64,000 nucleotides of DNA, from the NCBI GenBank assembly GCA_037043455.1, contig JAWPHD010001324.1, positions 186,001 through 250,000 of the forward strand. The letters run 5' to 3'. Numbering within the stretch: position 1 is the stretch's first letter; every line of letters begins with the position of its first letter. This document shows, piece after piece, positions 24,224 through 54,200 of this stretch. A model generated the notes under the pieces. That model saw nothing but the letters and a program-made list of their open reading frames with translations. It ran no database searches and was not told the DNA's origin. A program made the position numbers and the translations under genes. This stretch comes from Cyrtodaria siliqua. Its lineage: Eukaryota; Mollusca; Bivalvia; Adapedonta; Hiatellidae.

Positions 24224-27200
24224 GTGAGTATTTATAGTGTGTTTTGTCAAAGAAAATAAATCGCTTTTGTGAAGATAATAACCTTAGAATTACAAAAATG
24301 TTACCTGGCAACAAGAAATGCCATATCTGAGTGTCTGTCTACTGACATCAATAGACTTACTCTGGAATTATGTTAACCCTTAACCTGCTACATATATATA
24401 ATGGACTGTTCTTTCTTCGAATCAGGACCATTCCATTTATGTGACAAAGGGGTGTTTTGGGGGAAATGACTGATCAGCAGCTGGACATTGCGCTGATCTG
24501 TGTTAACAATGGACGCAAATGTTATTCTAGTTGTGCTTAGTGGGTTAAGGCCTTTCTTGAGTTATATCGGTCACATGATGTAGGTACAAACAACTTGTAG
24601 GCTGCAATAATTGCCAAGTGCAACTTAATTGTCAGCGAAAATGAGTGTTCCGCATTGTTTGTTTTCAACAAGAAAACCCATTCAGACATATTCCGGATAA
24701 GGGCTATTAAAAAGCTTATCCAACATTTTGTTAAGATGTCCATTAACTAGTGGATAATGCATGATGTACTCATTATTGGATATTGGAACATTATAGCTAG
24801 ACTAATATCGACATGCCATATGATATTGTAGAACAAACTTGACTGGTTATTGCCTGATTATTATAATACACCGCTGTTAGGGCAAAGGGTCGGAACATGG
24901 GCAAAGACAGGTTAAATTGGTTAAACAATATTATAGGATTAAATTGAACTCGTTGTGTACCTGCTGTCTGTTATTTATAGCGCTGCTGGTAAAAATTCAT
25001 TAAAAACTTATAATAATTATTATATTTGTAATCACTACTCTACTCCCCAAAAAGCACTGGGTGGATATTCATGAAACACCAGAGGGACATATCTCCCAAG
25101 GCCTAGGGTGGATATTCATGAAACACCACAAGGCATATCTCCCAAGGCCTAGGGTGCATATTCATGAAACACCACAGGGACATATCTCCAAAGGCCTAGG
25201 GTGCATATTCTTGAAACACCACAGGGACATATCTCCCAAATATTCATGAAACACCATAGGGACATATCTCCCAAGGCCAAGGGTGGATATTCATGAAACA
25301 CCACAGGGACAATTCTCCCAAGGCCTAGTTGGTCTAAAAATAAGGTTAACTTCCTGTAAAATCCAGGAAGACCACCCTGGTGGGTTAAGAGATATAGCAT
25401 GAGATTTTTACCAAATACAGCACGATGAGTCATGTGTAAAAATCCTTTCTGCACAGGCACCAAAGATGCCCTTTTCAAAATAAAGGCTCCACAGTAGAGC
25501 TTAGTATCTATCTGCGAACCCTTGTTTTATATTTGTCCTTCTCATCAACAGTTGTTTCATCTATTTTTGCAGCATATGGCAAAGTGTTTCTTGTACGTAA
25601 GCTGAATGGAAATGATAAAAACAAATTGTATGCGATGAAAGTACTGAAAAAGGCATCTATAGTACAGAAGACAAAGACGACCGAGCACACAAAGACGGAG
25701 CGCCAGGTGCTGGAAGCTATACGTCAGTCGCCATTCCTTGTTAAGCTACACTATGCATTTCAAACAGATGCAAAATTACACCTTATTCTTGGTAAGTGGC
25801 AGGATGAGGTGATACCTTATTCTTGGTAAGTGGCAGGATGAGGAGATACCTTATTCTTGGTAAGTGGCAGGATGAGGAGATACCTTATTCTTGGTAAGTG
25901 GCAGGATGAGGAGATACCTTATTCTTGGTAAGTGGCAGGATGAGGAGATACCTTATTCTTGGTAAGTGGCAGGATGAGGAGATACCTTATTCTTGGTAAG
26001 TGGCAGGATGAGGAGATACCTTATTCTTGGTAAGTGGCAGGATGAGGAGATACCTTATTCTTGGTAAGTGGCAGGATGAGGAGATACCTTATTCTTGGTA
26101 AGTGGCAGGATGAGGAGATACCTTATTCTTGGTAAGTGGCAGGATGAGGAGATACCTTATTCTTGGTAAGTGGCAGGATGAGGAGATACCTTATTCTTGG
26201 TAAGTGGCAGGATGAGGAGATACCTTATTCTTGGTAAGTGGCAGGATGAGGAGATACCTTATTCTTGGCAGGGGCGGATCCAGGATTTCAGCTTAGGGGG
26301 GGCGTAATATTTTGGTCAATTTTCGGGTCCGTCTCTAGCCTCATAAAACGTTTGCGGTAGTGCATTTATAGGGTAAAAAAGTCCGTTTTCAAATAAAAAG
26401 ATTTAACAATGTGTTAATTAAACCACTTATTAGCCATTATGCGTCGAGCGAGCGAAAAAAAAAAATACTGAGGGCGTCCATCTATATTGTTTGATGTTTT
26501 ATCTACAGTAACATGGACATACACGTATGAATAACAAAAGTCCGTTTTCAAATAAAAGAATTTAACAATGTGTTAATTTAACCACTCATTAGCCATTATG
26601 CGTCAAGCGAGCGAGATTTTTTTTTATACTGAGGGCGTGCAACGTAATTGTTTGATATTTTATCTACAATAACATGGACATACATGTATGAATAAAAAAG
26701 TCTGTTTTCAAATAAAAGGATTTAAAGGGACACATGGCAATCTTGAGTTTTATTCAAACATTTAAAAGTTGCACCTCAATTAACTTATCCTGCGTCATTT
26801 TGACTTTAAAACTGCTTGCATATATTTAAATAAAAAAATCAGATTTCAACTATCTTCACTATTTTACCAAATTTTTAAATATATTACTGGTGCAATATTA
26901 TAAAAAGTTAGTAATATGCAAAAAACATTTGCTTTGAACTATTCTAACAATTAATATTAATGATTGAACAAGTGCAAGTTAAGAGGAAAACTAACGGGAC
27001 GCCGTGAGTTTTTAAAAAATCAAGATTGCCGTGTGTCCCTTTAACAATGTGTTAATTAAACCACTCATTAGCCATGATGCGTCGAGCGAGTGTAGTGAGC
27101 GAGAATTTTTTTTATACTGAGGGCGTATTTGATATTTTATCTACAGTAAAATGGACATACATGTATGATCCGGAATTTTTAGGGGGGGCGCGCGCCGGGT

Positions 27201-51200: not shown

Positions 51201-54200
51201 GTCCGTCTGTCCGTCCGTCCGTTAACTTTTATTTGTAGCGACTACTCCTCTGAAACTACTGGATGGATATTCATAAAACTTTACAAAAATGTTGCCCATG
51301 AAGTCTAGTTGATCCTAGCAAAAATTCATGTTGATGTGAAATCCAAGATGGCCGCCAAAGCTAAAAATAGATTTTTTAAATACAAGTTTGTAGCGACTAC
51401 TTCTTGAAAACTATAAGTGATATTGATATGGGACTTTTTCTAAAATGATCAGCATGACATGATGTTGGTCCTTGTCGAAAATCGTTTTGATTTGACGTTA
51501 AACATGGCTGCCAGCGGCCATCTTTGTTTACATAGAGTTATATAATGAAAACTTGTAGCGACTACTCCTCTGAAACTACTTGACGGATTTTCATGAAACT
51601 TCACAGGAATGTTGCTCTTGATGTCTAATTGATCCTAGCAAAATTTCAGGTCGGCCGGAAATTCAAGATGGCCGCCACGGCTAAAAATAATTTTTCAAAA
51701 TACAAGTTTGTAGCGACTACTTCTTAAAAACTATAAGTGATATTGATATGGGACTTTTTCTAAAATGATCAGCATGACATGATGTTGGTCCTTATCAAAA
51801 ATTGTTTTGATTTGACGTTAAACGTGGCTGCCAGCGGCCATCATTGTTTACATAGTCATATAGTAAAAACTTGTAGCGACTACTCCTCTAAAACTACTTG
51901 GCGGATTTTCATGAAACTTTACAGGAATGTTGCTCTTAATGTCTAATTGATCCTAGCAAAATTTCAGATCGGCCAGAAATTCAAGATGGCTGCCACAGTT
52001 AAAAATAGATTTTTAAAAAATAAGTTTGTAGCGACTACTTCTTAAAAACTATAAGTGATGTTGATATGGGACTTTTTCTAAAATGATCAGCATGACATGA
52101 TGGTTATCCGAGTCGAACATTATTTTGATTCGACATTAAACATGGCTGCCAGTGGCCATCTTTGTTTACATAGAGTTATATAATGAAAACTTGTAGTGAC
52201 TACTTCTCTGAAACTACTTGACGGATTTTCATGAAGCTTCACAAAAATGTTGCTCTTGATGTCTAATTGATCCTAGCAAAATTTCAGGTCGGCCGGAAAT
52301 TCAAGATGGCCGTCATGGCTAAAAATAGATTTTCAAAATACAAGTTTGTAGCGACTTCTTCTTGAAAACTATAAGTGATATTGATATGGGACTTTTTCTA
52401 AAATGATCAGCATGACATGATGGTTATCCGAGTCGAACATTATTTTGATTCGACATTAAACATGGCTGCCAGTGGCCATCTTTGTTTACATAGAGTTATA
52501 TAATGAAAACTTGTAGCGACTACTCCTCTGAAACTACTTGACGGATTTTCATGAAACTTCACAGAAATGTTGCTCTTGATGTCTTATTGATCCTAGCAAA
52601 ATTTCAGGACGGCCGGAAATTCAAGATGGCCGCCATGGCTAAAAATAGATTTTCATGCAAGTTTGTAGCGACTACTTCTTGAAAACTATAAGTGATATTG
52701 ATATGGGACTTTTTCTAAAATGATCAGCATGACATGATGTTGGTCCTTATCAAAAATCGTTTTGATTCGACGTTAAACGTGGCTGCCAGCGGCCATCTTT
52801 GTTTACATAGAGTTATATAGTAAAAACTTGTAGCGACTACTTCTCTGAAACTACATGGCGGATTTTCATGAAACTTTACAGGTATGTTGCTCTTAATGTC
52901 TAATTGATCCTAGCAAAATTTCAGATCGGCCAGAAATTCAAGATGGCTGCCACAGTTAAAAATAGATTTTTAAAATATAAGTTTGTAGCGACTACTTCTT
53001 GAAAACTATAAGAGATATTGATATGGGACTTTTTCTAAAATGATCAGCATGACATGATGGTTATCCGAGTCGAACATTATTTTGATTCAATGTTAAACAT
53101 GGCTGTCAGTGGCCATCTTTGTTTACATAGAGTTATATAATGAAAACTTGTAGCGACTACTCCTCTGAAACTACTTGACGGATTTTCATGAAACTTCACA
53201 GGAATGTTGCTCTTGATGTCTAATTGATCCTAGCAAAATTTCAGGTCGGCCGGAAATTCAAGATGGCCACCACAGCTAAAAATAGATTTTCAAAAAAACA
53301 GTTTGTAGCGACTACTTCCTGAAATCAAAATCAATCAGTAGAGCTTCAAGGTCATTGACCTCTTGTTTTTATTTTATTTTTGAAATATTTTGTAACTTCT
53401 GAGAAATAATGAAAAAAATATTTAAAAGGCATAACATTTTTTTCTCCGGAAGTAAATTTACTTCAGTTATTAATATTGATAAGTGAGTATAATATGCCAT
53501 ACATTGTGTACAAAAATAAGGATAAATAGTAGGTCATTTGAATAATTTCGATGACCTTATAATGGTCAAATTCACAATTATGTTTCATTTTTAGAATATT
53601 TTGTTCGAGGACGACTCTGAACAAGCTGAAATGAAGATCATAGACTTTGGTTTTGCCCGCCTAAAGCCTGGGAACCAGACATTGACTACTCCTTGTTTCA
53701 CACTGCCGTACGGGGCTCCAGAGGTCCTCCTGCAGGCATCAGCGACTAAGGACAAGGAAGGATATGATGAGGCCTGTGATTTATGGAGTCTCGGTGTGAT
53801 ACTGGTAAACTTTTCTTTGCTCTCATTATCAAGTATGGGTTTGACAAAGTTTTCAGGCACCAGTCCAGCATGAGTTTGACAAAGTTTTCAGGCACCAGTC
53901 CAGCATGGGTTTGACAAAGTTTTCAGGCACCAGTCCAGCATGGGTTTGACAAAGTTTTCAGGCACCAGTCCAGCATGGGTTTGACAAAGTTTTCAAGCAC
54001 CAGTCCAGCATGGGTTTATACCTGCAAGCAGGATTATTTCTTATCACAAAACTTGCAGCTTGAGAGCTTTATAAAGCCATAATATATTTTTTATCATAAT
54101 GCACTAGTGTATTAATTATGCAAATAAAAGCCAATCATCATTCAGTCTTTTCTGTTCAGCTTGGTGTACATCGGAATTTCCTCGTTGATTTCCGTAGTCA

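Follow-up and report, generated by a model that had tools for sequence, protein, structure and literature searches.

Junction-spanning minisatellites in the introns of a bivalve kinase gene

The kinase gene and its exon model

The window analysed here is a 64-kb stretch of DNA from the bivalve Cyrtodaria siliqua (contig C1324:186001-250000 of a 2.88-Gb genome), and it carries 14 exons and 13 introns of an MSK/RPS6KA5-type kinase gene on the + strand, in which several introns hold tandem copies of the edges of their own exons. The exon model is as follows:

24155-61695, + strand: part of the kinase gene within the window, single open frame with AG/GT borders
24155-24223, 25573-25791, 33983-34098, 35209-35403, 37822-37925, + strand: exons 1-5 of the model
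40281-40425, 41063-41224, 41995-42117, 43301-43377, 44838-44982, + strand: exons 6-10
50838-51008, 53595-53804, 54641-54791, 60782-61695, + strand: exons 11-14

Joined together, the 14 exons give one open frame that reaches the final stop, with every border being AG/GT. The six best protein matches share 65-77% identity with the product and are bivalve wherever named, the nearest named proteins being those of Mactra antiquata (74%), Ruditapes philippinarum (77% over 93% of the query), and Dreissena polymorpha (68%). In an alignment with six orthologs, the junctions are free of insertions with the sole exception of exon 6/7, where 14 extra residues show that exon 7 begins at 41063 rather than at 41021, a shift that keeps the frame. 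The first coding exon was not found within the window, and a candidate for it at 16721 was judged to be unrelated once its sequence was read.

Exon-edge arrays in the kinase introns

By combining tandem-repeat finding with Tandem Repeats Finder (TRF), direct reading, and alignment of junction 30-mers, we identified six junction arrays and two decayed cases, in which the tandem units (20-48 bp) straddle the exon-intron border. All eight cases listed in a preliminary description of this DNA (donor 25791; acceptors 33983, 35209, 41995, 44838, and 50838; decayed cases 34113 and 35441) are thus present, and donor and acceptor borders are both hit:

25780-26268, + strand: donor-edge array of the exon ending at 25791; 34-bp unit of 12 exon and 22 intron bases, 14.4 copies, 99% matches
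27226-27388, + strand: the same 34-bp donor-edge array, resumed past an inserted element, 4.8 copies
32463-32783, + strand: acceptor-edge array of exon 33983; 30-bp unit, TGCAG and then, across the border, ATTATGTAA, about 9 exon bases
34065-34157, + strand: decayed single duplication of the donor edge of exon 33983-34098; 48-bp period, from TRF and exon sequence
34352-35226, + strand: acceptor-edge array of exon 35209; 30-bp unit of 12 intron and 18 exon bases (beginning CTTGGCATAATATACC), about 28 copies
35441-35561, + strand: decayed copy of exon 35209-35403 plus its donor; the donor 30-mer scores 18.0 at 35534-35561
41749-41990, + strand: acceptor-edge array of exon 41995; 28-bp unit, TTTGCAG plus about 5 exon bases (with a mismatch)
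43523-44845, + strand: acceptor-edge array of exon 44838; 29-bp unit of 21 intron and 8 exon bases (CAG and then GAAATGTC), about 39 copies
45035-50862, + strand: acceptor-edge arrays of exon 50838; TACAG and then TTACACACATATAT, mixed 20-28 bp units (20/26/28), about 40 matches

Copies matching the junction number 18 (donor 25791), 8 (33983), 28 (35209), 9 (41995), 39 (44838), and 40 (50838). The exonic part of the units, previously given as 8-50 bases, measured about 5 to 18 in the six arrays, and tandem arrays in general occupy 15007 of the 37541 bp (40%) of the gene.

Several of these arrays are interrupted or displaced. The 34-bp donor array is split at approximately 26269-27225 by an element whose inverted ends are almost the same (GCGGATCCAGG) and which is flanked by CTTGG on either side; it came in after the array had grown. 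The acceptor array of exon 33983 sits 1.2 kb off its exon, with one more lone match at 31796-31817, and lies beyond an unrelated 17-bp array (TATTAAGAGACCACCTG) at 32930-33791, itself adjoined by an inverted copy at 33830-33855. Moreover, the arrays of exon 50838 are broken up by a 320-bp tandem element (46589-48034).

For each of the 26 junctions, we aligned a 30-mer (14 intron and 16 exon bases) with the intron it belongs to and with each of the 12 other introns, with the older exon-7 start (41021) being used, which affects that acceptor alone. Scores of at least 14 in the own intron were reached by 8 of the 26 junctions, and of at least 16 by 6, as against none of the 312 other-intron pairs at 14 or above (maximum 13.0). 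One of the eight, a match of acceptor 53595 (14.5; AT-rich, single copy), is probably due to chance. With a score of 12.0, the decayed donor case at 34113 fell under the cut-off, but it is supported by TRF (34065-34157) and by exon-only sequence. When only 30 exon bases were used, the donor and acceptor of intron 3, the donor of intron 4, and the acceptor of intron 10 each had a score that none of 100 shuffles reached. The outcome was weaker for the donor (7/100) and acceptor (4/100) of intron 2, and no excess over shuffles was seen at the acceptors of introns 7 and 9, where only 5-8 exon bases are shared.

The same anatomy in myosin and TCP1 genes

Profile searches of the same genome gave at least 79 matches for PF00063 (myosin head) and at least 68 for PF00118 (TCP1), with the best candidates being scored. 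We fetched stretches with 50 and 28 of these matches, respectively (designated L004, L006, and so on), and added 39 myosin exons out of 49 extra tblastn matches, of which 8 were dropped as copies inside junction-spanning arrays and 2 as degenerate copies. This gave 117 exon cores with 229 junctions, the borders being placed by splice-site score. Arrays make up 21.7% of the 199743 bp of myosin stretches, and 10 of the 229 junctions lie inside tandem arrays. Here, we call a junction-spanning array a mirage, the name in use for such repeats in amphioxus, for which Canestro 2002 is reportedly the source cited. The cases seen by eye, with units of 29-80 bp, are:

Clear donor mirages: L012 (80 bp), L006 (29), L022 (55), two in L021 (58 and 61), L004/L008 (52)
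Clear acceptor mirages: L018 (65 bp), L030 (47, two copies), L004/L008 (47)
Decayed mirages: L007 acceptor, L011 acceptor

At L008 junction 6692, one of the ten inside arrays, the donor had been misplaced, and by eye there is a donor mirage at the true border, whereas the L013 donor is uncertain, as the called border falls past a stop in the matched frame. The contigs of L004 and L008, alike over long blocks (88-98%), both carry the acceptor array of the P-loop exon, though at 328 bp in one and 758 bp in the other, from which it follows that junction arrays change length; judging by their likeness, the two look like haplotypes, with recent paralogs being another possibility. Since L007 and L004/L008, which are separate copies of the gene, have similar units, the L007 acceptor array may predate the gene duplication. 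The preliminary claim of independent, recurrent events is supported, given that the kinase units are unlike one another in sequence and length and that myosin and TCP1 genes show the same arrangement.

Two contig pairs are about 88-98% alike over long blocks (L004/L005 with L008, and L014/L015 with L016/L017), which suggests that the assembly may retain both haplotypes at some loci. Separately, muscle-myosin-type exons are duplicated in tandem at L009 7573-9586 and L010 530-858, and these look like mutually exclusive alternatives.

Origin of the arrays

We favour the view, which we regard as probable, that the kinase arrays are junction-spanning minisatellites born from more or less random tandem duplication together with selection on splicing. 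Short segments are often tandemly repeated in this genome, with arrays making up 40% of the kinase gene and, across 200 kb from myosin genes, 22% of the sequence, and the exon-edge arrays are probably a by-product of a genome that produces tandem repeats everywhere. Duplications would begin at more or less random positions, and where one straddles a junction, a single copy would stay attached to the exon body and remain the used splice site; the remaining copies, being intronic by position, would be removed along with the intron. Such an array may then grow or shrink by replication slippage or unequal exchange, and selection would purge alleles that use a decoy site, as almost no decoy keeps the frame open. 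The earlier statement that duplication starts across a splice junction and grows away from the exon holds as a pattern, for which geometry plus selection suffices, but not as evidence of a process acting at borders, because, whatever the mechanism, it is the copy next to the exon that serves as the real edge once a junction has been duplicated, and growth direction is thus uninformative on mechanism. Random placement also fits the exonic share of the unit, which in 16 cases (from TRF ends and by eye, with the 33983 array entered as 9/30) ranges from 0.18 to 0.77 with a mean of 0.46, a uniform distribution not being rejected (Kolmogorov-Smirnov p 0.32; p 0.21 with preliminary estimates). Scattered in this way, the shares give no fixed offset that would point to a junction-guided machine, with the little power that 16 cases afford.

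Alternatively, exon borders could be true hotspots at which tandem duplications arise, with disturbed replication or transcription (R-loops, pausing, repair) as one conceivable cause. We hold this to be rather unlikely, although some of the evidence speaks for it and, by the same token, against random birth. When each array is taken once (the birth count), the kinase gene has 36 arrays, of which 5 overlap a junction as against 2.1 expected (P 0.045), and more do so with the by-eye cases. Moreover, exon-facing array ends in the independent genes peak at -3 to 15 bp from the junction (0.218 per junction per 100 bp, as against 0.04-0.07 beyond 30 bp). The peak comprises nine ends; a single contig pair accounts for two of them, the donor call is poor at another, and the border is misplaced at yet another. 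To these points against our view is added that correct splicing at the array-bearing junctions is presumed. An initial count, made on 48 myosin cores, had arrays touching 13 of the 96 windows at exon edges, as against 4.8% of the control windows (1083 of 22568). After the borders had been refined, 6 of 97 myosin junctions lie in arrays, and for units of up to 60, 100, and 500 bp the observed numbers are 5, 6, and 6 with 1.3, 1.7, and 2.9 expected (P 0.011, 0.007, and 0.069). For all 117 cores, the corresponding values are 7, 10, and 10 with 2.9, 3.7, and 6.3 expected (P 0.028, 0.004, and 0.10), an excess of 1.6 to 2.7-fold depending on the unit-length limit, though these P values are rough and too small, as the 229 junctions include haplotype and paralog pairs and the borders come from a splice-site score.

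On the other side, the excess fades once long units are included (10 versus 6.3), TCP1 genes alone have 1 of 56 junctions in arrays, and unit borders keep no fixed offset from the junction. A coverage count, which asks for a copy of the junction 30-mer within 1.5 kb (1500 bp), likewise speaks against hotspots. Here, an own copy was found for 18 of 221 junctions (8%) with enough flank, including four whole-exon duplications (three in L009, one in L010) and L031, which has only CAG in common with the exon, whereas 20.3% of 3000 random non-exonic 30-mers have a copy within the next 1500 bp. Mismatched pairs gave 23 of 2210, so that the predicted excess of own over shuffled exon-intron pairs is seen both in this independent set and in the kinase gene. 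As proof of a hotspot, however, the pairing test had to be rejected, because any local tandem duplication passes it, as did 20% of the random 30-mers. Taken together, junctions as favoured birthplaces of arrays are weakly supported, and the wider picture, in which borders are minisatellite hotspots, introns keep filling up with copies of their own splice sites, and the spliceosome has to tell the authentic site from dozens of decoys almost identical to it, seems doubtful to us.

It is very unlikely that selection maintains the copies for a role in splicing, be it as decoys, as recursive or dual AG-GT sites, or as alternative ends of exons. Many copies do have an intact AG or GT, and by motif the kinase gene holds 146 decoy acceptors (18, 6, 27, 87, and 8) and 18 decoy donors; moreover, to go by the sequence alone, AG-GT junctions are present at several donor arrays, and human UBC is described, in the passages of the report concerned, as using a tandem array of dual-specific splice sites (PMC10809524). 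However, the frame stays open for just 2 of the 164 decoys, both within the 30-bp array before exon 35209, and residues derived from copies are absent at these junctions from the six aligned ortholog proteins. In addition, the units are unlike between introns, and several arrays have decayed.

That the satellites were already present in the introns and gave rise to the exon edges is extremely improbable. Exon edge and array do agree in sequence, but conserved residues of the kinase or of myosin (LGIIYRD, LHTY, and the myosin P-loop) are encoded at the exon edges, for which reason copying ran from exon to intron and we reject the reverse course. Finally, short repeats are hard to assemble and the copies of the donor array match at 99%, yet an assembly artefact is extremely improbable and can be set aside, given that the same two arrays occur in two contigs (L004 and L008), one array has taken up an inserted element, most arrays have diverged copies, and units differ between introns.

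Other repeats in the window

Tandem repeats of about 320 bp occur in four places (18268-19660, 46589-48034, 51233-53324, and 55794-57283). Those at 46589, 51233, and 55794 have one consensus in common and are preceded by GTCCGTC-type runs, and by this arrangement they resemble insertions of a single mobile element that has tandem repeats inside it, a kind of element typical of bivalves. A 43-bp satellite lies at 736-6327 (130 copies, 97% matches), with similar sequence near 16850 (16835-16880), and a run of C covers 83 bases at 59151-59233 (92% matches).

Comparison with known systems

The human UBC array mentioned above consists, according to those passages, of coding repeats whose sites are used. 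The kinase and myosin arrays resemble it in the tandem AG-GT sites at several donor arrays, but differ in that the copies are intronic and apparently unused. In the Rogers model, as cited in PMC3087553, introns are gained through tandem duplication of AG/GT segments, and potato RdRp is reportedly a case of intron gain by tandem duplication (PMC4974935). Tandem duplication with copied splice sites is shared with our arrays, although the kinase copies lie instead within existing introns. Junction arrays are nonetheless raw material for intron gain and for shifts of exon borders.

Among molluscs, no report of junction-spanning minisatellites was recognised, by titles and abstract openings, in searches of an open-licence collection of papers. 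An abalone kinase has an intronic 27-bp minisatellite that is not said to span a junction in the portion of the report consulted (PMC6905558), and the intronic minisatellites of an earthworm metallothionein are without a junction-spanning unit in the passages concerned (PMC12783039).

The phenomenon is a known oddity of amphioxus, found here in a mollusc. Tandem repeats over exon-intron borders are described there for Adh3 and globins (PMC3087553, in part) and for TnC and PGBD5 (PMC3902484, in part), with units of 10 to about 160 bp and, for Adh3, somatic length instability in the sections of these reports at hand. The kinase arrays are alike in that the unit spans the border, has minisatellite size, and affects donors and acceptors. 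Mirages are further marked by lengths that vary among alleles, of which the 328 and 758 bp arrays of L004/L008 may be an instance, and by transcripts that keep the authentic exon and lack the copies. They are unlike those of amphioxus in their bivalve host, in being known from DNA, and in their density, with eight junctions in one gene and further cases in myosin and TCP1 genes. This density lets a single genome address both whether tandem duplication prefers junctions and by what means splicing passes over dozens of decoys that are nearly perfect.

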